This document shows positions 2,937 to 46,492 of a stretch of DNA of 46,968 nucleotides, one piece after another (position 1 is the stretch's first letter; each line of letters opens with the position of its first letter). The notes beneath the pieces were generated by a model that searched no databases, was not told where the DNA came from, and saw only the letters and a list, made by a program, of their open reading frames with translations. The stretch is from Actinomycetota bacterium (GTDB taxonomy: Bacteria; Actinomycetota; Acidimicrobiia; Actinomarinales; Actinomarinaceae): the NCBI GenBank assembly GCA_014239265.1, contig JAAZZH010000008.1, forward strand, positions 1 to 46,968, written 5' to 3'. A program made the translations under genes and the position numbers.

Positions 2937-2960
2937 ATTAGTACCCTATTTTAGACTTTT

Positions 2961-5208: not shown

Positions 5209-6513
5209 TTAATTTTTAAATTTTATATTTAAACATATATTGTCAAAATTATATGTGTCACGAAGTCTATTATCTATAAAGTTCTGATAATTAATTGGGA
5301 CTCTACCACTTAATATAAAACTGAACGAAGGAGGGTAAACATCGTACTGTGTCACATATTTTAGCTTCGCTCTCCTACCTCTAAACGGATGAGGTGGTTT
5401 TTTTGTCCATATTTCTCTGAAAAGTATATTTAATTCATGGGTTGTAATACGAGTTGAAAGCTGTTTCTGTAAATCATAAATCACCGTATTAAGATTTTTT
5501 ACACCTTTGCCATTAAGTGCTGAAATTCTTAAGATCTTTAACCATGAATATTTCTTTAGCAATGAAGTAATGTTTTTGTTTATAAAAAGTTTCTCATCTT
5601 CTTTTAGAAGATCCCACTTATTCATAATTAATATTGGTGTTACTTTATTTTCAATGCATTCACTAATTAACCTCATATCTTCAAAATTAATTCCCTGTTT
5701 TGCATCTACAACGAGAAAAGCTATTACAGAATTCTCTAATTGACCAACGGCTAAAGATGATGCATATCTATCTATCTGGTTTTTTTGTTTTTTACGTGGC
5801 ACCCCAGCGGTATCAATAATGTTATAAGAATCTGAATCGAATTTGATTGTCTCTTCTAATTTATCTCGGGTCGTACCCGAAATATTTGAAACAATTGCTC
5901 TTTCCTCATTCAAGAGCTTATTAAATAATGTAGACTTACCCGAGTTAGGCTTTCCAATAATTGCTATAGACTTATAGGTATTTTTAATTGAATCCGTATT
6001 AGATGACATGCTTTTTGTAATTGACTCCATTAATTCTTCAGTACCCAATTTATGAATAGATGAGACGTAATAGTCTGAATCGTAAATGTATTTATACAGC
6101 TCTGTATTCAATTCAAACTTTTTAAAATTTTCACATTTATTAAATACTGTTATGACTTTTTGTTCTTTATTTATATTTTTTTGCAAAAGACTGTGTATTT
6201 TATCTAATCCAGAATAATTTGTTGTGTGTACGTCAATTACAAACATGATTAACTTTGCATCATTAAGATACGCTTTTAGCTTATTTTGAAACTTTTCATT
6301 TAATTCATCTGGGTCTTCTAGATAACCAGGTAAATCAGAAATATTAAAAACTTTATCATTTCTCTTAATTGTTGAAGAGACTTTATCTCGTGTTGTATTT
6401 GGCGTAGAACCAATTATTGATACTTTTTTTCTGGACAACGCATTTACTAATGAAGACTTACCGGAGTTTGGTAATCCAACTAATAAAACTTCATCAATAT
6501 TGTTTTTAGTCAT
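5209..6513 (-). CDS. der: Ribosome biogenesis GTPase Der (EngA)
   Basis: Two tandem GTPase domains (GLPNSGKSSLVNAL, DLPG; GKPNSGKSTLFNKLL, DTAG, NKWD) plus C-terminal KH-like domain. Confidence 0.97.
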   Translation of the reverse strand: MTKNNIDEVLLVGLPNSGKSSLVNALSRKKVSIIGSTPNTTRDKVSSTIKRNDKVFNISDLPGYLEDPDELNEKFQNKLKAYLNDAKLIMFVIDVHTTNYSGLDKIHSLLQKNINKEQKVITVFNKCENFKKFELNTELYKYIYDSDYYVSSIHKLGTEELMESITKSMSSNTDSIKNTYKSIAIIGKPNSGKSTLFNKLLNEERAIVSNISGTTRDKLEETIKFDSDSYNIIDTAGVPRKKQKNQIDRYASSLAVGQLENSVIAFLVVDAKQGINFEDMRLISECIENKVTPILIMNKWDLLKEDEKLFINKNITSLLKKYSWLKILRISALNGKGVKNLNTVIYDLQKQLSTRITTHELNILFREIWTKKPPHPFRGRRAKLKYVTQYDVYPPSFSFILSGRVPINYQNFIDNRLRDTYNFDNICLNIKFKN

Positions 6514-6539
6514 AATTTAAATATAGCTATCCTACTGAT

Positions 6540-7571
6540 ATGGTAAACAATCTTTATTTAGTTACTCCAAGGGGCTTTTGTGCTGGTGTTGAGATGGCGA
6601 TTAAAGCATTGACATGGATGTTGAAAATATATGATGAAACTATTTATTGCTATCACGAAATTGTTCATAATGACTGGATTGTAGAAAGATTCAAAACTAA
6701 AAACATTAAATTCATTGAATCACCTGAAGAACTTCCAAAAAACGCCATTGTAATGCTTTCGGCCCATGGAACTTCGCCAAAAATAGAAAATGAATTTAAT
6801 TCTCTCTCATCCATTCAAGTTAATGCGGTATGTCCACTAGTAACTAAGGTACATCATGAGGCAAAGAAATTTAGTGAAGCAGGGCAACAAATTATTTATG
6901 TAGGTCATAAAAATCATGATGAAGCGCTCGGAGCTTTAGGCGTTGCACCAGACTCAATGTTTTTAGTAGAGAAGGAGGATGATTTAGAAGAAATAAACAT
7001 ATCCAGTGATAAAGTAGCATTACTTGCTCAAACAACCTTAGCTATGTCAGAATGGAAACCAATAATGGAATCTGCCCAAAAAAAATATCCCAATTTAAAT
7101 ATGCCAAGAAAGAGCGATCTCTGTTATGCAACAACAAACCGCCAAGAAGCTGTAATCAACGTTTCAAGTATGGTTGATATAGTCTTAGTTGTAGGTTCAG
7201 ATACATCAAGTAATACTAAGGCGCTTGTATCAACAATAAAAAACTTAGGTAAAGAAAGTTACCGAGTGAACACAACTGAAGAAATAGATAATTTAGACTT
7301 AAAAGATAAAAATGTTGCTGTGACAGCTGGAGCTTCTGCACCTGATCATATAGTTCAAGAAATTATCAATAAACTTCAACCAAACGAAACAATATATTTT
7401 GAAAATACGAATGAAACAGAATATTTTCCGCTTCCTAAAGAGCTAAGGTCAAGCATTACAACAGTAAGTAATTTTTTACTGGCATTATTTCCAGAGAATA
7501 AAGTGGAGCCCGTAAGAAGTGTTAATAAAGATAAGCAATGGTCTGCTACAGAAGCTTTAACTTCTCTTTAA
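6540..7571 (+). CDS. ispH: 4-hydroxy-3-methylbut-2-enyl diphosphate reductase
   Basis: 343 aa; PRGFCAGVEMAI, HEIVHNDWIVERF, VCPLVTKVHHEAKKF and SDLCYATTNRQEAV (three conserved Cys). Confidence 0.97.
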   Translation: MVNNLYLVTPRGFCAGVEMAIKALTWMLKIYDETIYCYHEIVHNDWIVERFKTKNIKFIESPEELPKNAIVMLSAHGTSPKIENEFNSLSSIQVNAVCPLVTKVHHEAKKFSEAGQQIIYVGHKNHDEALGALGVAPDSMFLVEKEDDLEEINISSDKVALLAQTTLAMSEWKPIMESAQKKYPNLNMPRKSDLCYATTNRQEAVINVSSMVDIVLVVGSDTSSNTKALVSTIKNLGKESYRVNTTEEIDNLDLKDKNVAVTAGASAPDHIVQEIINKLQPNETIYFENTNETEYFPLPKELRSSITTVSNFLLALFPENKVEPVRSVNKDKQWSATEALTSL

Positions 7572-11350: not shown

Positions 11351-12976
11351 TTAATCTTTTACTTTCATTTTAGTAGAAGTTATTTTCTCAGTATTTTGAG
11401 AAAAAGCTGCGCTTTGTATGAATCTATCAAACATTGGAGCCGGTTCCCAAGGACGAGACTTGAACTCAGGATGGAATTGAGAGGCAACGAAGAAAGGATG
11501 GTCTTTTAATTCAATCATTTCTACTAAGTTATTATCTGGAGACAAGCCACTGAAAATTAAACCGTTTTTCTCTAAAACTTCTCTGTATTTGTTATTCACT
11601 TCATATCTATGTCTATGACGCTCGTATATAACTTCCTCTTTATATATTTCAGAGGTAATAGTATTTTTAGTAATTTTACAAGGATATGTTCCTAATCTCA
11701 TAGATGCACCAACATCATCTTTATCTAGGTCTTGATTCGGTAAAAGATCAATAACAAAATCTTTTGTATTTTGTGAAAATTCAGAAGAATTAGCTTCATT
11801 AATTCCACATACATTTCTTGAATACTCTATAACGGCACACTGTAATCCAAGACAAATCCCAAGAAATGGAATTTTATTCTCTCTTAAATACTGTATGGCT
11901 GAAATTTTACCTTCGATCCCCCTCACTCCAAAACCACCTGGAACTACAACCCCATCAAGGTTAGAAATGTCTTCAGCATCATAATTGTCAGCATCAATCC
12001 ACTGAAGGTCTAAATTAACTTTATTTTGAAGACATGCATGTTTTAATGATTCAACAACAGACATGTAGCTATCCGGTAAGCCGAAATATTTACCAAGGAT
12101 CGCAATCTTAACATCTTTAGTCGATTCTTTTTTTAGAGAAAGCATATTTTTCCATTCATTCAACTCCGGCTCTTCTGTGTTGAGGTTTAACCTTTTATTA
12201 ACTGCTACATCTAAGCCCTCGGAGTGCATTTTAAGAGGTACGTCATAGATGTCATCAAGATCTGGAGCGTTAATTACATTCTCATAACTTACATCACAAA
12301 ATAGTGAAACTTTGTTTTTGATATCTTCATCTAGTTTTCTATCTGAACGAAGAACAATTATGTCTGGACTAATTCCATACCCTCGTAACATTGAGACTGA
12401 GTGTTGAGTAGGTTTTGTTTTCAGTTCTGTACTTGGTCCAATAAAAGGAACCAAAGTTACGTGAATAAACATAACATTTTCTTGACCAAGCTCTTTACGC
12501 ATTTGCCTAGCTGCTTCTAGAAATGGAAGTATCTCTATATCACCAACAGTACCTCCTATTTCTGTAATCTGGACATCTACATCATTTGAGATACCTTTAA
12601 TTCTTCTCTTTATTTCATCCGTGATATGAGGAATAACTTGAACCGTTGCTCCTAGGTAGTCACCTTTACGTTCTCTTTCTATTACTTTTCTGTAAATGCT
12701 TCCAGTAGTCACATTTGCATCTTTTCGTAGATTCACCCCAGTAAACCGTTCGTAGTGACCAAGATCTAGATCAGTCGTTGCGCCATCCTCAGTTACAAAT
12801 ACTTCACCATGTTGAAAAGGATTCATGGTATCTGGATCAACATTGATATATGGATCAAGTTTTTGATTAACAATTGTAAGTCCACGTGATTTTAGAAGGT
12901 TACCAAGGGATGCAGAGGTAATCCCTTTACCAAGACCAGAGACTACACCACCAGTTACAAATATGTATTTGGTCAC
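11351..12976 (-). CDS. pyrG: CTP synthase
   Basis: 541 aa; TKYIFVTGGVVSGLGKGITSASLG N-terminus and C-terminal GATase (FLGICLGLQ). Confidence 0.98.
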   Translation of the reverse strand: MTKYIFVTGGVVSGLGKGITSASLGNLLKSRGLTIVNQKLDPYINVDPDTMNPFQHGEVFVTEDGATTDLDLGHYERFTGVNLRKDANVTTGSIYRKVIERERKGDYLGATVQVIPHITDEIKRRIKGISNDVDVQITEIGGTVGDIEILPFLEAARQMRKELGQENVMFIHVTLVPFIGPSTELKTKPTQHSVSMLRGYGISPDIIVLRSDRKLDEDIKNKVSLFCDVSYENVINAPDLDDIYDVPLKMHSEGLDVAVNKRLNLNTEEPELNEWKNMLSLKKESTKDVKIAILGKYFGLPDSYMSVVESLKHACLQNKVNLDLQWIDADNYDAEDISNLDGVVVPGGFGVRGIEGKISAIQYLRENKIPFLGICLGLQCAVIEYSRNVCGINEANSSEFSQNTKDFVIDLLPNQDLDKDDVGASMRLGTYPCKITKNTITSEIYKEEVIYERHRHRYEVNNKYREVLEKNGLIFSGLSPDNNLVEMIELKDHPFFVASQFHPEFKSRPWEPAPMFDRFIQSAAFSQNTEKITSTKMKVKD

Positions 12977-13013
12977 TCGAAAATTTTAGCATGATAAATC
13001 CTTATTAAAAGGA

Positions 13014-13814
13014 TTATCTAAGAATTTGATTTAGAAATAAATCTAATCTGGGAGAATTATCTGTTCCTATTATGTGTAAAGACTTTTCTGATAACGTATA
13101 GTCAAGTTTGTTATCTTTATCGCTTTCTACTTCCGACTCAACAACACCATCAAATTGAATTGCATAATTTTGCTTTTTTTTGATTTCAATCTGAATTTTC
13201 GACTTTTGATCTAAAACAATTGACCTGGGAAATTTAGAAAATGGTGAGATAGGTGTAATGATAATTGAATTAAGACTATTTTGTACAATTGGTCCACCTG
13301 CTGAATAATTATATGCTGTTGAGCCTAAAGATGTTGAAATAATAATTCCGTCAGCTCTTAGTTTTACTGTTTGGTCATGAGTTTTAAATACAATATCAAG
13401 AATTCTTGTTGGAGAATTTTTAATTAATACGATTTCATTAAAGGCTGGGGATTTTAAATTATTATCTTGTATTATTGCTTTCCTATTGTTGATGTGGCTC
13501 TTGCCTTCAATCCACTCGTCAAGTATTTGCTCTATATTTTCAGATTTGTTTACAAGGTATCCAACTCGTCCAGTTCCTAAGGGCATGAATAATAAATTAT
13601 AGGTCCAAGATATTTTCATAGCCTTAAGTGCAGTACCATCTCCGCCAAAACTGATGACAAGTGTATCTTTGTTTAAATAATTATCATATTGTTCTACATC
13701 TTCAACAAATGAAATATGGAATTCTAATTTTCTTGATTTTATCAAACTAACAAAATCTGTATAATTTTTTAATTTGGTATATTTCTTTGATGAAATAATT
13801 AATATATTCTTCAC
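13014..13814 (-). CDS. nadK: NAD kinase
   Basis: SFGGDGTALKA, RADGIIISTSLGSTAYNYSAGGPIV motifs. Confidence 0.95.
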   Translation of the reverse strand: MKNILIISSKKYTKLKNYTDFVSLIKSRKLEFHISFVEDVEQYDNYLNKDTLVISFGGDGTALKAMKISWTYNLLFMPLGTGRVGYLVNKSENIEQILDEWIEGKSHINNRKAIIQDNNLKSPAFNEIVLIKNSPTRILDIVFKTHDQTVKLRADGIIISTSLGSTAYNYSAGGPIVQNSLNSIIITPISPFSKFPRSIVLDQKSKIQIEIKKKQNYAIQFDGVVESEVESDKDNKLDYTLSEKSLHIIGTDNSPRLDLFLNQILR

Positions 13815-13850
13815 TAGGATATATTATACGCAACTTGGAGTCAGTACAAC

Positions 13851-21338: not shown

Positions 21339-21438
21339 AAATAATTAGTTTTAGCTTTATAAGTATCTTACAAAATATTAGATATAAATTTTATATTCGA
21401 AGATTTGTGTAAATCTATAACAAGGTAAAATACTACTT

Positions 21439-21684
21439 ATGAAAGTATGGATTGATCAAGATTTATGTACCGGTGATGGCCTTTGTGAAGAGATCGCACC
21501 AGATGTATTTGTCGGATTAGATGATGGCCTTTTTTATGTTAAAGAGGGTGATAAAGTTTTTTCAGAAGAAAATGGGAATGTCGGTGGTGCTGAAGGCCTA
21601 GCTGTTGTTCCTAAAGGTCAAGAAGATGCAGTTGTTGAATCGGCAGAGGAATGTCCTGGCGAATGCATAATGATTGAACCATAA
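21439..21684 (+). CDS. Small ferredoxin (3Fe-4S/4Fe-4S type)
   Basis: 81 aa; WIDQDLCTGDGLCEEIAPDVF ... AEECPGECIMIEP. Confidence 0.88.
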   Translation: MKVWIDQDLCTGDGLCEEIAPDVFVGLDDGLFYVKEGDKVFSEENGNVGGAEGLAVVPKGQEDAVVESAEECPGECIMIEP

Positions 21685-21685
21685 A

Positions 21686-22459
21686 TCATAAAATATACCT
21701 ACCACTCACTATAAAACCCGTGTGACCCACCATTGTGTGCTTAGGTCTTGAAATATTACCTCGTATCGTCCACTCTCTCTCCATTGTCTCTTTAATCTCA
21801 ACATCTTTAAAGCTATTGTCTTGCAAAACTTCAGCTAACTTAGACACTTGAGATATTGAGGGTAAATATGAAACCCAGTAAAGATTACTATTTATATGAT
21901 TATTTTCGAAGAATACCCATGGTTCTGGGACATCTGTAATAACAGTATCAAATTTAAAAGGAACAGTATCAATTTTAAAATCAGACAGATCTGTATTAAT
22001 AAATTGAATATCATTTATAAAATCAGATGAATAATTAGATAAATATCTTGATATTGTCTTTTTAGCTCGATATTGATTTTTTTTACTGATATCTAAAGAA
22101 TAAAATTCAGAATTATTACCTAAAATTGAGGCTAAAAAAAGAGTTAATGCTCCAGACCCAGTACCAATCTCCAAAACTTTACTATTTGCATTTATATTCC
22201 CTGAAATGAGTATTGAACCCACATCTTTGGGATATATTATTTGAGGCCCTCTCTTCATAAGAAGAATAAATTCTTTATAAGATGGAACATAAATTGTAAA
22301 TATTTTTCCGGTTGATGATTCAATTTGAGTAGGAAGGGATTTTATTTTATCAAATTCTATTTTGCCATCATTAGTTATGAATTCTTTGCCTTTTGTTATT
22401 ACGCTTAAGTACTTTTTTGATTCAGATGAAATTATTACGAGTCTGTTGTCAATTTCCAC
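21686..22459 (-). CDS. trmI: tRNA (adenine-N1)-methyltransferase TrmI-like
   Basis: RGPQIIYPKDVGSILISGNINANSKVLEIGTGSGALTLFLAS typical of the TrmI/Trm61 family; GTG start at 22459. Confidence 0.85.
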   Translation of the reverse strand: MEIDNRLVIISSESKKYLSVITKGKEFITNDGKIEFDKIKSLPTQIESSTGKIFTIYVPSYKEFILLMKRGPQIIYPKDVGSILISGNINANSKVLEIGTGSGALTLFLASILGNNSEFYSLDISKKNQYRAKKTISRYLSNYSSDFINDIQFINTDLSDFKIDTVPFKFDTVITDVPEPWVFFENNHINSNLYWVSYLPSISQVSKLAEVLQDNSFKDVEIKETMEREWTIRGNISRPKHTMVGHTGFIVSGRYIL

Positions 22460-22463
22460 AGAT

Positions 22464-22553
22464 TTATATTAACAGTAAAAAATAGGCAATCGTAGAAAAT
22501 ACAACACCAGCAGCTAAGACGATTGCTACGAATTTTTGTAGTGACTTATTCAC
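22464..22553 (-). CDS. 29-aa single-TM peptide, GTG start, absent from the ORF track
   Basis: MNKSLQKFVAIVLAAGVVFSTIAYFLLLI (GTG initiator). The GTG overlaps the TGA of the upstream ORF (GTGA), suggesting translational coupling. Confidence 0.5.
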   Translation of the reverse strand: MNKSLQKFVAIVLAAGVVFSTIAYFLLLI

Positions 22554-24032: not shown

Positions 24033-25586
24033 TCAAGCTATTGATTTATAGTTACGATTATTAAATATCAGTATCAGAAAAAACCCTATTAAAAAAACAC
24101 TCATATAGAGTTCGAGTGTAGTGACTGAGTTATAAAGTTGATACCTAACAACTAATGTAATAATCTGAGATAGAATACCAATTACAAGTAACTGGTTTTT
24201 TAAATCTTTTCGTCTTATCGTAACATTAAGTAATAACAGGCCAATAATGATCTTAACAAATGCTTCAAATGTATTTCCTGAAAACAAATATAACTGCCTT
24301 AAAGAAAAGAACCCTGATAAACCAATGCCACCAAGAGTTATTTGAAAAATGCCAATCAATATCAACATTGAGGATATCCAGGCAAGAAGAAAATTACTAT
24401 ATGATAACCTTGCTTTTATTGGGGTAGGCCATGGTTGTAGTGGGTTCACTCTCTTGATTAAAGAACGGGAAAGTCTAAAAGTTTGTCGTTCGTAATTACC
24501 AAAACAAAAAATAATTAAAAATATAACTAATGGGTAATAGATTGTAAAAGTCGGGAAATAGCTAATGAAAAAAAATAAAACAACGTGCCAAAGAAACAAA
24601 GTATAGATATTTGCATGTATTGTCGAGAAAATAGACCAAATAATTGACTTATTTAGCAAAATCTCGACTTGATCACGAAATAATAGAAACAGTGAAATTA
24701 GCCCTATAGATGAGATTAAATATACAGTGGTTGGAGGGTCTTCATTTGAAAAAGAAAGTAACCGATAATTCGAAACTGATAAATACTGTTCTGTTGTTGT
24801 GTGCATATAAGCTAGATAGCTATAAGAAAAAAAGGTTATTCCTGCAAACAGCGATTTCCTTAATGCAAAGATTTTTCCATCAGCTAGAAAATAACCAAGC
24901 TGGTGTATTGTTAACCAAAAAATTAGATAATTAAATAGCTTTATATAAGAAAGTGATAAATTGAATTCAATATTATCTATTAAAATCAAGCTAGATATCA
25001 AAAAAGAAAGAGTTAAATATGGATTCTTTTTATGTAGATATATCGTTAGCGGGCAAAACAATACAACTACTAAATAAATTGAGACAAGCCATAGTGGCCA
25101 CATGATAAATTCTGTAACCGTGAGAATACCATCTTGTTGATTTGTTATATATTTAGGAAAATAAATAATTCTGGTTGCTACGTTCAAAGACACTGTAATG
25201 AAGAATATCCAAACAAGAACAGATCCCATCAATCCATCTACCCTATCTGTTAAAAATTTCCACTGACTTCCGTCTCTGCCAACATTTGAATACCAAGCAA
25301 TCTTATTGGTGAAACCTGTAGAAAAGAAAAACAGAGCCATCCCTGCTGTCAACCAAGTAACAGGAGTTAACGAGCCATCTAAAACAGTACGATTGTAAAT
25401 AATAAATTCTCCACTTGATTTCTCAAAATTTAGAAAATAGTTTGTATTAAAAATAATTAGCAACAAACCAGAAACTTTAACAAAATCGATAAACCTAACT
25501 CTAGAATTTGAAGTTTTAGATACTTCGTCAAGAGCTCTTTTGAAGCTTCTCAAAGACGGCAGAAATAAGCCTGTAAATTGTTTCAT
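24033..25586 (-). CDS. Acyltransferase-3-like polytopic membrane protein
   Basis: 517 aa; RVRFIDFVKVSGLLLIIFNTNYFL...TWLTAGMALFFFSTGFTN resembles acyltransferase family 3 N-termini; about 12 hydrophobic segments. Confidence 0.65.
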   Translation of the reverse strand: MKQFTGLFLPSLRSFKRALDEVSKTSNSRVRFIDFVKVSGLLLIIFNTNYFLNFEKSSGEFIIYNRTVLDGSLTPVTWLTAGMALFFFSTGFTNKIAWYSNVGRDGSQWKFLTDRVDGLMGSVLVWIFFITVSLNVATRIIYFPKYITNQQDGILTVTEFIMWPLWLVSIYLVVVLFCPLTIYLHKKNPYLTLSFLISSLILIDNIEFNLSLSYIKLFNYLIFWLTIHQLGYFLADGKIFALRKSLFAGITFFSYSYLAYMHTTTEQYLSVSNYRLLSFSNEDPPTTVYLISSIGLISLFLLFRDQVEILLNKSIIWSIFSTIHANIYTLFLWHVVLFFFISYFPTFTIYYPLVIFLIIFCFGNYERQTFRLSRSLIKRVNPLQPWPTPIKARLSYSNFLLAWISSMLILIGIFQITLGGIGLSGFFSLRQLYLFSGNTFEAFVKIIIGLLLLNVTIRRKDLKNQLLVIGILSQIITLVVRYQLYNSVTTLELYMSVFLIGFFLILIFNNRNYKSIA

Positions 25587-25637
25587 ACTAAATATTTTAC
25601 ATACTATATGGTTCTTGAATAGGAATATAATTACATT

Positions 25638-26081
25638 GTGGAAATTGTACTTTATCAGCCAGAGATTGCGGGAAATGTTGGAGCTTGCATACGACTCTCG
25701 GCCAATACGGGTGTTCCATTAAATATAATAAAACCCCTTGGTTTTAGCTTTCAGGAGAATAAGATTCGGCGTGCTGGTTTGGATTATCACGATTTAGCTA
25801 CTGTCAGTAGTTATGAAAATTGGGATGAATTTATTCAAAAAAACCAAAACAAATCAATCGCATATCTTTCTGCAAAGGGAAACAAAAACTATTGGGACTG
25901 TAACCTCCTATCATTTGATTACTTAGTTTTTGGTCCGGAATCTGTTGGATTACCACAAGATATTATCTTGGATCAAAAATATCTTTTGACAATACCAATG
26001 GATGATAATTCGCGAAGTATAAATTTAGCTAACTCAGTTGCAATAGTTGGGTATGAATACCTGAGGCAGAAAAATGTATAG
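25638..26081 (+). CDS. trmL: tRNA (cytidine/uridine-34-2'-O)-methyltransferase TrmL-like (SPOUT)
   Basis: VLYQPEIAGNVGACIRLSANTGVPLNIIKPLGF, RRAGLDYHDL, FGPESVGLPQDI, SRSINLANSVAIVGYE; GTG start. Confidence 0.92.
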   Translation: MEIVLYQPEIAGNVGACIRLSANTGVPLNIIKPLGFSFQENKIRRAGLDYHDLATVSSYENWDEFIQKNQNKSIAYLSAKGNKNYWDCNLLSFDYLVFGPESVGLPQDIILDQKYLLTIPMDDNSRSINLANSVAIVGYEYLRQKNV

Positions 26082-27622: not shown

Positions 27623-27986
27623 TTACTTGAAACTCTAAGCTAAGACTGTTGACACAATACCTTTTCCCCGTAGGTTTTGGACCGTCAGGAAATATGTGGC
27701 CAAGATGGGAAGAACAAATTTTACAAAGTATTTCAGTTCGTATCATGCCTAGAGTTGTATCTTCTTTAGTGTCTATTTTTTCTGCAACTGCATCAAAAAA
27801 ACTTGGCCATCCTGAGCCTGATTCATATTTTGTTGAGGAATCAAATAATATTTCTTTGCAAACTGCGCATACATAATTACCAATTCTTTTTTCATTAAGA
27901 AGTTTTCCAGAAAATGGAGGCTCTGTCCCACAAAATTGTGTAACTTGTATTTGTTCTGCGGTTAAATGGTCTTTATTTATTGTCAT
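27615..27986 (-). CDS. msrB: Peptide-methionine (R)-S-oxide reductase
   Basis: CAVCKEILFDSSTKYESGSGWPSFFDA, CKICSSHLGHIFPDGP, GKRYCVNSLSLEF. Confidence 0.96.
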   Translation of the reverse strand: MTINKDHLTAEQIQVTQFCGTEPPFSGKLLNEKRIGNYVCAVCKEILFDSSTKYESGSGWPSFFDAVAEKIDTKEDTTLGMIRTEILCKICSSHLGHIFPDGPKPTGKRYCVNSLSLEFQVNE

Positions 27987-28000
27987 AGAATTATTTTATC

Positions 28001-29126: not shown

Positions 29127-30169
29127 TTGTTTTCAGATCCTGTAAATATTTCATTTGTTGTTTGAGTAACTCTTATAAAAGTGGTACTTTTTGGCAAGTC
29201 CTTGAGAGTCTTTGCACCTACATAGGAACATGCTGATCTGATTCCACCGAGGATAGATTGAACAGTAGAATCAATCTCACCTTTGTATTTAAGTCTTACT
29301 TTTTTGCCCTCTGGTGCGCGATGTTCTGCTAGGTCACCATAATATCTCTCTTGAGCTTTTCTTGAAGACATTCCATAAAAATCTTTGTACTGAACACCAT
29401 TCTTGTCGGTGACAAGTTCTCCTCCCGATTCTTTGTGACCAGCAAATATTCCACCAAGCATGACATAATCAGCACCAGCTCCAAAAGCTTTAGAAACATC
29501 ACCTGGGTACTTGCAACCACCATCTGCAATTACATGACCGCCAAGGCCGTGAGCAGCATCAGAGCATTCAGAAATTGAAGAAAGTTGAGGGTAGCCTACC
29601 CCTGCTACTTTTCTAGTAGTACAAACTGATCCCGGACCAATACCTATTTTAACTATATCAGCACCAGCAAGAATTAGTGCTTCTGTCATTTCTCTTGTAG
29701 CTACATTCCCGGCAATAATTATTTTGTTTGGAAATTTTTCTCTATATGTTTTAACTGATTCTACAAAATCTTCGCGATAGCCATTTGCAACATCCAAGCA
29801 TAAAAATTTTATTCTATCATCAAGATTGAAGACATCTACAGCTTTCTGAAAGTCTTCTTTTGAAGTGCCCACAGTCACAGCAAGATAGTCTGGATTTAGA
29901 TTTTTTAGGTTTTCTTCCCATTCATTTAAAGTATAAAATTTATGAACTGCAGTAAGCATGTTGTGACTTTGAAGTACCTTAGCTGTTTCAAAGGTACCTG
30001 TTGTATCCATATTTGCTGAAAAGATAGGTATTCCAGTCCATTTTTCGCTTGAGTGACGAAATTTAAACTCTCTATTTAATTCAACCTCGGCTCTTGATAC
30101 AAGTGTACTTCTTTTTGGTCTTATTAAGACGTCGTCAAAAGTTAACTTTATCTCATCTTCTATTCTCAT
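29123..30169 (-). CDS. guaC: GMP reductase (IMPDH/GMPR family without CBS domains)
   Basis: MRIEDEIKLTFDDVLIRPKRSTLVSRAEVEL, VKIGIGPGSVCTTRKVAGVGYPQLSS. Start placed at ATG 30169; tracked ORF begins at 30184. Confidence 0.9.
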   Translation of the reverse strand: MRIEDEIKLTFDDVLIRPKRSTLVSRAEVELNREFKFRHSSEKWTGIPIFSANMDTTGTFETAKVLQSHNMLTAVHKFYTLNEWEENLKNLNPDYLAVTVGTSKEDFQKAVDVFNLDDRIKFLCLDVANGYREDFVESVKTYREKFPNKIIIAGNVATREMTEALILAGADIVKIGIGPGSVCTTRKVAGVGYPQLSSISECSDAAHGLGGHVIADGGCKYPGDVSKAFGAGADYVMLGGIFAGHKESGGELVTDKNGVQYKDFYGMSSRKAQERYYGDLAEHRAPEGKKVRLKYKGEIDSTVQSILGGIRSACSYVGAKTLKDLPKSTTFIRVTQTTNEIFTGSENN

Positions 30170-30205: not shown

Positions 30206-30784
30206 ATGATAGTTGAATTTCCTTTTTTTGCCGCTGGTATTAATTATTTTCCAGATGAAATATCAGTTTTACGTATATTTGAACCAAGATATCTTCTTCT
30301 AATAGGTGACAGTATTCAAAATAACAGTACATTTTGTGTTGGTAGATCTTTGGATAAATTAAATGAAGTAGCTTCAGAAGTTAGGATTATTGATCATCAA
30401 GACACATCAAATGCTGAACAAGTAGTAGTTGTAGAGTGTGTCAATCTAGTAGACATTGCAAAGATCAATCTTAAAAATGAATATCCAAAAGTGTCGGGTG
30501 AGTTAGTAATAGATATTGGGCTACCACCAACTGAGGATGAGCTTTTAGTACTTGAAGCAGATATCAAAAGAGGCATTGGAAAATTGATAGAACAAGGTTT
30601 AGATATTGAACTACCAATATTTGAAATAGACTCAGCTAATAGAATTCTTAAACTTTGGGAGCTATCAGCAAAGTTGCCAATGGCTGAGGAAACAAGAAAT
30701 TATCTAATTTCCGAAAGAGAAATTGTAAAAAGATACTCAATATTAAAAAATTATGTTCAGAAAATAAATGATATAAATTTTTAA
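30206..30784 (+). CDS. LON N-terminal (substrate-binding/PUA-like) domain protein
   Basis: FPFFAAGINYFPDEISVLRIFEPRYLLLIGD typical of stand-alone LON-SB domain proteins. Confidence 0.85.
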   Translation: MIVEFPFFAAGINYFPDEISVLRIFEPRYLLLIGDSIQNNSTFCVGRSLDKLNEVASEVRIIDHQDTSNAEQVVVVECVNLVDIAKINLKNEYPKVSGELVIDIGLPPTEDELLVLEADIKRGIGKLIEQGLDIELPIFEIDSANRILKLWELSAKLPMAEETRNYLISEREIVKRYSILKNYVQKINDINF

Positions 30785-31437
30785 ATACTCTTCCACTTTT
30801 TATATATGGAATTAATTTCATACTTAAGTTGTTCTGTATTAGTAATTAAATAATTCAATGTTGAAGATACATCATAATCTACTAACTCTTTTCTACTTAC
30901 GTCACTGTTATACCAGTCTTGAAAAAGGGTCTCTGTAACCTCTGGATGGAATTGTATGGCGATAGAGTTCCTAATTGTAAAGATTTGAGGATATTTTGTA
31001 GAAGCAATAAGCTCTGCTGATGGAGGAAGAGTGAATGTATCCCTATGCCATAAAAAGACTTTAGAATTTTTTAATCCTGAGAAAATTTCAGAATCTTTGT
31101 GAAAATTTAACTGTTTAAAGCCAAACTCAATCTCTTCAGAAAGAAAAGCCGTGCCCCCCATTGCATCAGCAATGAGTTGTGCGCCTAGGCAAATACCAAA
31201 AACTTTAGTTCCATTATTAATAACTTTATTGAGCCATTCCTTTTCTTCTCGCAAGTATGGATAGGTTTCTATCTCATATGCACCCATGTGTCCACCTAAT
31301 ATAATATATTCATGCTGTTCTGAAAGGGATCCCCAATTAACATCCCATGCATACTTTTCTTCTATGTCAATATTTGATAATGATCCGAGAGTTACTTTCG
31401 GATCATTTATGATTGCAATTGTTTTTGTAGTTTCCAT
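30781..31437 (-). CDS. Type 1 glutamine amidotransferase
   Basis: VFGICLGAQLIADAMGG nucleophile elbow, AIQFHPEVT. Confidence 0.88.
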   Translation of the reverse strand: METTKTIAIINDPKVTLGSLSNIDIEEKYAWDVNWGSLSEQHEYIILGGHMGAYEIETYPYLREEKEWLNKVINNGTKVFGICLGAQLIADAMGGTAFLSEEIEFGFKQLNFHKDSEIFSGLKNSKVFLWHRDTFTLPPSAELIASTKYPQIFTIRNSIAIQFHPEVTETLFQDWYNSDVSRKELVDYDVSSTLNYLITNTEQLKYEINSIYKKWKSI

Positions 31438-31442
31438 ACTTG

Positions 31443-31526
31443 TGCGCGGAAGAGGACTCGAACCTCCACGGGTTTTACCCCACAGGATCCTTAATCCTGC
31501 GCGTCTACCAGTTCCGCCACCCGCGC
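31443..31526 (-). tRNA. tRNA-Leu, anticodon read as AAG
   Basis: GCGCGGGTGGCGGAACTGGTAGACGCGCAGGATTAAGGATCCTGTGGGGTAAAACCCGTGGAGGTTCGAGTCCTCTTCCGCGCA. 7-bp acceptor stem, anticodon stem CAGGA/TCCTG enclosing TTAAGGA (34-36 = AAG), long class II variable arm; CCA not encoded. Confidence 0.9.
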
Positions 31527-41987: not shown

Positions 41988-42540
41988 TTTTCGAATCAAG
42001 GAAATTATCAAGTTGCTCTTGTAATTCTTTAAATGAAATATTTTCTACAACCAACCCAAGTGATTTCCACCAAGACTCATCTTGTTGAGTTTTAATTCGA
42101 TTATCTATATCAGTTAATGACATACCTCTTTTTTTAAGTCTGGTTCTACGTGTTTGTTCGTCAGCAAAAATAACCACAGTAGGATAAAGTTTAGAAATAT
42201 TTTTAGGGGCTGAAGCTTCTATGAATAAATGTTCTTTGGTGTCCTGTATTACTTCTAATACTCGTTCTGTTACTAAAGGATGTAGATAGTTTTCAAGTAA
42301 TCTAAGTTTTTCAGAATTTGTAAAAACATTATCTGCTAACAACTGTCTATCAATAACATTTCCTTTTAAACAATTGCTGAACTCTTCTTTTAAAAACGGT
42401 AAAGAATCATGACTTTGTAAAATTTCATTTGAAATCTGATCTAAATCAATTGTTTTAAAGTTTTTGGTTGCTAAATATTCACAAGCAGTGGATTTCCCGC
42501 TTCCTATTGGGCCTGTAATAATTGTTACTCTTGAATCCAT
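41980..42540 (-). CDS. coaE: Dephospho-CoA kinase
   Basis: ITGPIGSGKSTACEYLATKNFKTIDLDQISNEIL; between rpsA and uvrB as in other actinobacteria. Confidence 0.93.
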   Translation of the reverse strand: MDSRVTIITGPIGSGKSTACEYLATKNFKTIDLDQISNEILQSHDSLPFLKEEFSNCLKGNVIDRQLLADNVFTNSEKLRLLENYLHPLVTERVLEVIQDTKEHLFIEASAPKNISKLYPTVVIFADEQTRRTRLKKRGMSLTDIDNRIKTQQDESWWKSLGLVVENISFKELQEQLDNFLDSKNE

Positions 42541-42570
42541 ATGCTTAAGGATAAAGAATATTAGGAACTA

Positions 42571-43921: not shown

Positions 43922-46423
43922 TTAATTATTTGCTAAATTTTTATTATTTTTAATATTAACAAATAATGGTACTTTAAGTTGGGTTGCACTTTCCATTTCG
44001 GTGCTTATGATGTTTGTGACCTCTTCAATGTTTGCAATAGGTGTCTGAACAATAATCTCATCATGGATCTGTAGCAATAAATCTGTAGACTCTAAATCTG
44101 ATATTTTACTTTGCACCTTGAGCATTGCTATTTTCATAATATCTGCCGCTGTTCCTTGGATGGGAGCATTCATTGCAATTCTTTTTCCCATGGCTTTTAG
44201 TTGAAAGTTAGAAGAACCTAACTCTTTTATAATTCGTTTTCTTCCATAAAGTGTTTTTGTAAATCCATTTTTTTCAGCATCCGATACTATTGTGTCCAAA
44301 AAACCTTTTATTTTTGGAAACTGAGAAAAATATGCATCTATAAGTTCTTGAGCTTCATTTTTTGTAATATCAAGACTTTTGGAAAGTCCAAACGATTCCA
44401 TTCCATAAATAAGACCGAAGTTAACTTCTTTAGCCTTTCTTCTCATATCTTTTGTTACTGAATCTAAATTGATGTTAAAAATTCTAGATGCAGTTTCAGT
44501 ATGAATATCAGAATCAATAGAACTTAGGATTTCAATCATATTTTTATCAGAACTTAAATGGGCAAGTACTCGTAATTCAATTTGTGAATAGTCAGAAATA
44601 ATAAAAGTATGATTGGTGTCAGCAATAAAGAATTCGCGTATTTTTTGGCCAATATCTGTTTTATTAGGAATATTTTGGAGATTTGGTTTTTCTGAAGATA
44701 ACCGACCTGTTGTGGTTCCAAAAAGATTGTAAGTTGTATGAATTCTATTTTTAGCTGTAATTTCTGTTTTTAAACCATCAATATAGGTTGATCTTATTTT
44801 TTCATATTCTCGATATTTCAATATATATTTAGGAAGTTCGTAATCTTTTGAGAGTTCTTCAAGAACTGAACCATCCGTTGACGGGGCTCCTTTTGGAGTT
44901 TTTTTAATCACAGGAAGGTTCATGTCTTCAAATAGAACCTTAGCTAATTGTTTCGGAGAATTTAAATTAAACTCTTGCTTGGTTATCTCGATTATTTTTT
45001 TTCTATAATCAGAGATTTCTTGATTGATAATTTTTGAAAGAGTATCAATTTTTTTATTTGAAACTTTAACTCCTTTAATCTGCATAGAGTTAAGTACAGA
45101 TACAATTGGGAAATCTAATTCTTCATAAAGTTTTATTAAAGTTTTATCAGATTTGAAATTCTTTAAATCATTTATTATTTGGTTGTAATTTAAATTAAAG
45201 AATTTAATAAAGTCTTCAATTGTAGATTTTTTATTAAGAAGATTAGCTTGTTCTATATGTTTACAAACATTTAAGAGATTATCGGGTCTTTTATTGGGAT
45301 CATGTAAAAATAAGAGACAATCGTAAGCCGTAACATACTTAGTATCCAATTTAGGTAATGAAGTAAACAGTTTTTGAGTTGTTAGCGAAATGAAATCTTT
45401 ATCAATGACTACATCATCAACTAATCTTCCTGCTATTTCTTTATTAACAACATAAATATTATTCTCAAATTTAAAAAGTAATGAATTTAATGGAAAGTTT
45501 TTTGAGCTAATTTCATTTATAGTTAGGTCTGTAGTGTCAACATCAGTAGTCTCTTGTTGAGATTTATACTTTCTTATATATTTATTAAGTTCGAGCTTTG
45601 TAACTTGATCTTGTGAATCTTTCAGAACATTATCAGAGTAAAATATAGTATCTTCAATTTTGATATCAGGTATCTTAAGTTTTAAATCAGTACGAATTGT
45701 TGCTAGGTCTTTACTCATCAATAATATTTCTTTATTATCTTCAAATGAACCCTTTATTTTGGGAGTTAATTCATCTAAATTTTCATAAATAGTTTTAATA
45801 TCTTTATGTTTTTGTAATAAATTAATAGCCGTTTTTTCACCAACACCTGGTAAACCTGGGATGTTATCAGAAGGATCACCCTTTAAGGCAAGATATTCAA
45901 CATATTGCTTAGTGTTTATTCCAAATTTATTTACAAAGAATTTTTCATCGACCAAATCAACATCTGAGATACCACGTTTTGTATATAGTATTTTTGTCTT
46001 ATTAGAAATCAATTGATATGTATCTCTATCACCTGTAACAATAAGAACTTCTTTATTTTTCTGATTTAGCATCACAGAGAGAGATCCTAAAACATCATCA
46101 GCTTCATAACCTTCTTTTGAAACTTGTGGAATGTTAAACGTATCTAACAGATTGTGTAATAGAGGTACTTGAATGTTAAAATTATCAGGTGCCGACGTTC
46201 GGTTGGCTTTGTAATCTGTATATATATCATTTCTAAAAGTATTTCCTGGTAGATCCCAAGTTACGATTAATTGTTCTAATTTATAGTCTGATGTTATTTT
46301 ATTGAGCATTGATAAAAAACCATGGATAACATTTGTTGGAGTACCCTTGGAAGTCATCAGAGTTTCAGGCAAAGCATAGAAGGCCCTGAAAGCAATGCTA
46401 AAACCATCAATGAGAACAATCAT
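43922..46423 (-). CDS. polA: DNA polymerase I
   Basis: 833 aa; N-terminal 5'-nuclease (GFSIAFRAFYALPETL, VTGDRDTYQL, GLPGVGEKTA) and pol A domain (SDYSQIELRVLAHLS, RRKAKEVNFGLIYGM, LQIHDEIIVQ). Confidence 0.98.
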   Translation of the reverse strand: MIVLIDGFSIAFRAFYALPETLMTSKGTPTNVIHGFLSMLNKITSDYKLEQLIVTWDLPGNTFRNDIYTDYKANRTSAPDNFNIQVPLLHNLLDTFNIPQVSKEGYEADDVLGSLSVMLNQKNKEVLIVTGDRDTYQLISNKTKILYTKRGISDVDLVDEKFFVNKFGINTKQYVEYLALKGDPSDNIPGLPGVGEKTAINLLQKHKDIKTIYENLDELTPKIKGSFEDNKEILLMSKDLATIRTDLKLKIPDIKIEDTIFYSDNVLKDSQDQVTKLELNKYIRKYKSQQETTDVDTTDLTINEISSKNFPLNSLLFKFENNIYVVNKEIAGRLVDDVVIDKDFISLTTQKLFTSLPKLDTKYVTAYDCLLFLHDPNKRPDNLLNVCKHIEQANLLNKKSTIEDFIKFFNLNYNQIINDLKNFKSDKTLIKLYEELDFPIVSVLNSMQIKGVKVSNKKIDTLSKIINQEISDYRKKIIEITKQEFNLNSPKQLAKVLFEDMNLPVIKKTPKGAPSTDGSVLEELSKDYELPKYILKYREYEKIRSTYIDGLKTEITAKNRIHTTYNLFGTTTGRLSSEKPNLQNIPNKTDIGQKIREFFIADTNHTFIISDYSQIELRVLAHLSSDKNMIEILSSIDSDIHTETASRIFNINLDSVTKDMRRKAKEVNFGLIYGMESFGLSKSLDITKNEAQELIDAYFSQFPKIKGFLDTIVSDAEKNGFTKTLYGRKRIIKELGSSNFQLKAMGKRIAMNAPIQGTAADIMKIAMLKVQSKISDLESTDLLLQIHDEIIVQTPIANIEEVTNIISTEMESATQLKVPLFVNIKNNKNLANN

Positions 46424-46492
46424 CCTTTCATTGTAAACTTAAATTATTTTTCTCTCTTTGGATTAAATATGAAATATAATCATAGAAGTAAA

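Follow-up and report, generated by a model that had tools for sequence, protein, structure and literature searches.

In Candidatus Actinomarina, a TANNNT hexamer is concentrated 12 to 13 nt upstream of the start codon of those genes which can stand first in a transcript, and leaderless transcription is the best explanation of these boxes, to which we assign a probability of roughly 90% as judged from DNA sequence. Counted with the first base of the start codon as +1, a hexamer spanning -12 to -7 falls into the canonical -10 register. With a box at this distance, transcription would set in on the start codon itself, and the corresponding messages should have no leader. The boxes would accordingly represent -10 elements recognized by the housekeeping sigma factor, with the first base of the start codon as the likely +1 and an mRNA devoid of a 5' UTR. 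Translation would start from the 5'-terminal AUG or GUG, as in mycobacteria, where an RTG at the 5' end is both required and sufficient (PMC4633059), probably by a 70S-type initiation. This mode would operate alongside ordinary Shine-Dalgarno (SD) initiation, which would mainly serve operon-internal genes and first genes with a leader.

Position of the TANNNT hexamer across the genome

The window, i.e. the whole stretch of 46,968 nucleotides analysed here, is the complete contig C88 of a genome (G000) of 1,049,390 bases in 96 contigs belonging to the lineage Candidatus Actinomarina; its ispH gene has relatives of 60-96% identity in records labelled Candidatus Actinomarina, Actinomarinales or OCS155 (marine Acidimicrobiia). 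Genome-wide counts were performed on 1,005,982 bases (1.006 Mb, 33.6% GC) stitched from stretches of G000. Gene starts were taken from a home-made gene caller using coding score and start codon as sole criteria; as this caller ignores upstream sequence, upstream motifs are unable to bias the choice of starts. A gene was counted as carrying a box if the first T of TANNNT was located at -12 or -13 of the start codon, with expectations obtained from dinucleotide shuffles. Comparisons included a second Actinomarina species (G006, median protein identity of about 66%) and a 68%-GC relative from another family of the same class (G046), while E. coli K-12 and the AT-rich phage T4 were passed through the same pipeline as negative controls.

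The original prediction had expected a positional TANNNT peak at -12/-13 compared with shuffled sequence, and such a peak is present and sharp. Its summit is at -12, a shoulder at -13 comprises 48 of 217 boxes (about a quarter), and other positions are without comparable signal. The proposed split by operon position holds as well, as the box is enriched in divergent genes (99 of 258, 38.4%; 26.5 in shuffles) and in genes 11-40 nt behind a same-strand neighbour (41 of 96, 42.7%; shuffles 7.4), but nearly absent at gaps of 10 nt or less (40 of 424, 9.4% with about 6% expected; shuffles 24.4). With unambiguous starts alone, the box is found in 38.2% of divergent genes and 9.2% of those at gaps of 10 nt or less. 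A motif-free EM search in divergent genes likewise returned TANAAT at -12/-13, part of the weight falling on -14 and -16; for same-strand genes with gaps above 10 nt, it returned SD motifs of the AGGAGA type. No clear signal of a -35 element was detected, TTG at a spacing of 16-18 bp being only mildly raised. The TANNNT peak was found again in G006. Among orthologous divergent genes with aligned starts, the box is common to 33.7% of G000/G006 pairs versus 17.5% if it occurred independently, and sequence identity climbs over positions -13 to -7.

TANNNT is common in this DNA because the genome has only 33.6% GC; upstream of divergent genes it occurs at about 4% per position, so that an artefact of AT-rich sequence or of start choice has to be considered. 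This explanation is contradicted by the dinucleotide shuffles, the internal-gene control and the unambiguous starts, as well as by a start choice blind to upstream sequence. Furthermore, the 68%-GC relative does exhibit the peak (13% of divergent genes with a box at -12 versus a background of 0.5%), while the AT-rich phage T4 has none (0% versus 7.8% expected); E. coli K-12 shows no peak either (2.4% versus 2.5%). The positional peak already refutes the artefact, whose probability is practically nil.

Over all genes of G000, the box is present in 22.4% versus about 7% expected, corresponding to about 15% above expectation. Assuming that TANNNT detects 73% of the -10 boxes, the figure for M. 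tuberculosis (PMC3898074), this excess would rise to about 20%. Such a level of about 15-20% is ordinary for the phylum, in which TA-led (leaderless) genes make up about 20% in Actinobacteria (Zheng et al. 2011, PMC3160421). Among possible first genes, about one quarter to two fifths seem to carry a -10 box placed for a start on the start codon. The claim that leaderless transcription is widespread is supported by the peak, the bases at -1/+1, the scarcity of TTG starts and the conservation, while a box at 'nearly every' first gene was overstated, as the box is carried by 7 of the window's 12 divergent genes and by about 38% of those in the genome.

Bases around the start codon and the nature of the signal

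Further signatures were compared between the 176 possible first genes of G000 with a box and the 364 without. A T at -1 is present in 120 boxed (68%) versus 136 unboxed genes (37%, p = 2e-11), and a TTG start in 2 versus 34 (p = 1.4e-4), both with the same direction in G006. Boxed genes typically combine an RTG start with a pyrimidine at -1 and a purine at +1, as seen again in G006 and, for the -1 position, also in G046, where a pyrimidine, mostly C like in M. tuberculosis, precedes 30 of 32 boxed versus 104 of 191 unboxed genes. In G000, but not in G006, T at -1 is also faintly associated with TANNNT at an off-register position (-20/-21, p = 0.04). SD4 motifs were found in 6 of the 176 boxed versus 97 of the 364 unboxed genes (p = 2e-12, same direction in G006), a deficit which arises in part automatically, as the box takes up some of the SD window. 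When SD outside the box is considered, boxed and unboxed genes do not differ significantly (OR 0.66, p = 0.23 in G000; OR 0.47, p = 0.06 in G006), and SD in boxed genes corresponds to the background level, which is again partly forced by box position. SD initiation nevertheless persists, with SD4 upstream of about 30% of the genes whose gap is 10 nt or less. The 3' end of the 16S rRNA, read from relatives as no 16S was found in G000's own sequence, is GGATCACCTCCTTTCT with an intact anti-SD.

These signatures also bear on the question whether the A/T-rich motif might be a translation element within a 5' UTR, i.e. an AT-rich non-SD site as in Bacteroidetes, with transcription starting further upstream. 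Such sites do exist in the FCB group (PMC9581028), and a DNA signal and an RNA signal are not separable by position alone. The motif, however, matches the TA...T consensus of -10 elements and stands in precisely their register, is accompanied by initiator bases at -1/+1 and by avoidance of TTG, and is nearly missing from operon-internal genes, although translation is needed there too. In addition, the der/ispH spacer described below holds two opposite copies within 26 bp, so that leaders could be accommodated only if each promoter were located within the gene on the other side. A UTR element is therefore very improbable. Somewhat less remote, yet still unlikely, are very short leaders of 1-6 nt instead of strictly leaderless messages. 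The boxes at -13 and the EM mass at -14 and -16 would fit such leaders, and in work on S. coelicolor leaders of less than 10 nt were counted as leaderless (PMC4681348). In contrast, the main mode lies at -12 and the step from T at -1 to a purine at +1 coincides with the codon, which favours transcription beginning on the start codon itself.

Regarding the factor that would recognize the boxes, a search for sigma region 4 in G000 yielded one primary sigma factor of the SigA/HrdB type and one ECF-like factor. The primary sigma matches SigA/HrdB chains with E values of about 5e-79, and its region 2.3-2.4 is nearly identical to that of an actinobacterial SigA; most likely, it is this SigA/HrdB-type sigma that would read the -10 box.

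The der/ispH spacer and other boxes in the window

In the window, 12 of the 27 genes that are divergent or more than 10 nt behind a same-strand gene carry a box, versus 8.7% expected (binomial p = 9e-7). The nine boxes initially read by eye (der, ispH, pyrG, nadK, ferredoxin, acyltransferase, trmL, coaE and polA) are all present with the spacings given for them, whereas three more strict matches, at the starts 2936, 22459 and 27986, had been missed. Nine of the twelve are kept in G006, those lost being 2936, 22459 and the acyltransferase start 25586.

The most compact arrangement is formed by der (EngA GTPase; 5209..6513, minus strand; Pfam MMR_HSR1 twice and KH_dom-like) and ispH (LytB; 6540..7571, plus strand; Pfam LYTB), both predicted to be leaderless. 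As had been noticed, their -10 boxes stand back to back in a gap of 26 bp. The der box TATATT (6520..6525, minus strand) ends 6 nt before the ATG at 6513-6511, the ispH box TATCCT (6528..6533, plus strand) 6 nt before the ATG at 6540-6542, and a GC dinucleotide (6526..6527) separates the two. In all 23 spanning Actinomarina loci the gap measures exactly 26 bp with both boxes kept. Throughout the aligned spacers (24 sequences including the window, 23 of them distinct), the der box is identical at -12 in 23/23, the ispH box reads TATCCT, TATTCT or TAATCT at -12 in 23/23 and the GC dinucleotide is invariant in 23/23; T at -1 is invariant for ispH and reaches 96% for der. Between species, the codons at the expected sites of -35 boxes are variable, as judged by eye. 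According to this geometry, two promoters would lie back to back in 26 bp with each start codon serving as a +1, so that two polymerases could presumably not sit there together. A divergent der/ispH pair also occurs in another family of the class (L134), where about 190 bp separate the two genes and an in-frame GTG near the ispH start has TACCAT at -12 (by eye).

The der/ispH spacer is the extreme of the general pattern and not a class of its own. A gap of 26 bp as a preferred divergent distance was rejected, since only 2 of 127 divergent pairs of G000 have it, der/ispH being among the tightest; likewise, no clear excess of two-sided boxes at divergent pairs was found (22 versus 18.7 expected). 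Bidirectional promoters in which both strands use one symmetrical -10 element (Warman/Grainger; PMC12825309) are similar in their tightly packed divergent starts and in the polymerase exclusion that is presumed for der/ispH, but the geometry of der/ispH differs because its boxes are separate, with 2 bp (GC) between them. Two other divergent arrangements were observed in passing. At 30169/30206, between an IMPDH/GMP-reductase-like gene and a gene without Pfam match, one overlapping -10 box is apparently shared (TATCCT on the plus and TAGGAT on the minus strand) and conserved in G006; the leaders would be about 8-11 nt here. At G000 C11:99093 and G006 C1:408352, divergent pairs (151/137 aa and 139/151 aa) have start-to-start gaps of 22 and 19 bp, respectively. 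The two pairs are apparently orthologous, judged by size and gap only, and at C11:99093 both -10 boxes overlap by a self-complementary TA.

Elsewhere in the window, the pyrG box TAAAAT (12983..12988, minus strand) precedes the GTG at 12976 and corresponds to TAAAGT with the same 37-bp gap in G006, and the nadK box TAATAT (13821..13826, minus strand; GTG at 13814) recurs there as TAATAT with the same 36-bp gap. Ferredoxin (ATG at 21439) has TAAAAT at -13 (21426..21431, plus strand; TATTAT at -13 in G006). For the acyltransferase-like gene (ATG at 25586), TAAAAT at -13 (25594..25599, minus strand) belongs to a start that is not conserved in G006, while the TATAAT of the trmL/SpoU methylase gene (25626..25631, plus strand; GTG at 25638) is kept there even though the divergent gap is 177 bp instead of 51 bp. 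Also kept is the TAAAAT (27993..27998, minus strand) before the ATG at 27986 of the msrB/SelR gene, which encodes a SelR domain. The coaE box TATCCT at -13 (42548..42553, minus strand; ATG at 42540) reads TAATCT at -13 in G006, and the polA box TACAAT (46430..46435, minus strand; ATG at 46423) reads TAAAAT. Possible boxes that are lost in G006, and may be chance, are TAGGGT (2943..2948, minus strand) before the ATG at 2936 of an ABC permease gene and TAATAT (22466..22471, minus strand) before the GTG at 22459 of a methyltransferase gene.

Two of the genes initially listed as necessarily first in their transcripts, pyrG and coaE, need not be so, as they lie 37 bp behind nadK and 30 bp behind rpsA, respectively. 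Both fall into the gap class with the strongest signal, so that short same-strand gaps probably often hide new promoters. Of the genes named as exceptions, rhomboid indeed has GGAG upstream (AGGAG in G006), and rpsA is without a box at -12/-13 in both the window genome and G006. The idea that an upstream stop codon supplies the first bases of the box at a 9-nt gap was dropped, as the cases (6/10 in G000 and 2/2 in G006) are too few, are partly forced by TAA/TAG and may be due to chance.

A gene start close behind a tRNA and the relation to known systems

A different configuration is found at the GatD-like GATase gene of the window (30781-31437, minus strand), whose ATG follows 4 nt after a tRNA-Leu(AAG) gene (31442..31526, minus strand). 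The same kind of tRNA precedes the GATase gene in 30/30 Actinomarina loci, with the ATG 4-13 nt, mostly 4-7 nt, behind it and no room for an SD. Excision of the tRNA by 3' processing would leave a GATase message with a leader of only a few nucleotides, which suggests a second, processing-based route to a near-leaderless message. Literature on such tRNA punctuation, in a search that was not exhaustive, mainly concerns mitochondria. That two near-leaderless routes, one with the -10 box set on the start codon and the other by mitochondria-like tRNA excision, exist here together with a fixed 26-bp two-way promoter at der/ispH is a tentative combination, which we rate at slightly less than even odds. 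Genome-wide, 6 of 33 tRNAs in G000 and 6 of 27 in G006 have a same-strand gene start within 40 nt downstream. Examples in G000 include tRNA-Gln (C1:25487-25567) followed by a glmU-like gene after 7 nt, tRNA-Trp (C8:4309-4396) followed by a secE-like gene after 12 nt (both gene names by eye), and tRNA-Thr (C77:3602-3678) followed by a 281-aa gene after 3 nt.

The leaderless signal of Actinomarina is real and conserved and matches a known general habit of actinobacteria. TA-led genes of Actinobacteria and Deinococcus-Thermus likewise show a TA-like -10 signal, located some 10 bp upstream of the start, and their trend toward TAtAAT at low GC fits the TANAAT of Actinomarina (PMC3160421); compared with that data set, Actinomarina adds an uncultured, streamlined marine member of the Acidimicrobiia with 33% GC. 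In M. tuberculosis, TANNNT is located 7-12 bp upstream of transcription start sites without a -35 motif, with a purine at +1 and a pyrimidine at -1 (PMC3898074). The likeness to M. tuberculosis and M. smegmatis (PMC3898074, PMC4633059) covers this spacing, the lack of a strong -35, both predicted initiator bases, RTG starts and commonly close divergent promoters. The base at -1, however, is T in low-GC Actinomarina and C in mycobacteria. In Deinococcus, a member of another phylum, TANNNT a few bp before the ORF was shown by mutation to be the promoter of a leaderless gene (PMC12340547). Our literature search found no paper linking leaderless genes to Actinomarina or leaderless promoters to Acidimicrobi*.

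As Actinomarina is uncultured and streamlined, sequence is the main handle on its expression. If at least a quarter of its first genes lack a leader, as is probable, this helps to fix gene starts and operon limits, and same-strand gaps of 13-40 nt often resemble new promoters rather than operon links. The claim can be checked in existing marine metatranscriptomes, and experiments would be most worthwhile on the der/ispH spacer and on the joint between tRNA-Leu and GATase. Because the same signal is present in a 68%-GC member of the class, the data suggest that leaderless expression persisted while the genome shrank and its base composition changed greatly.
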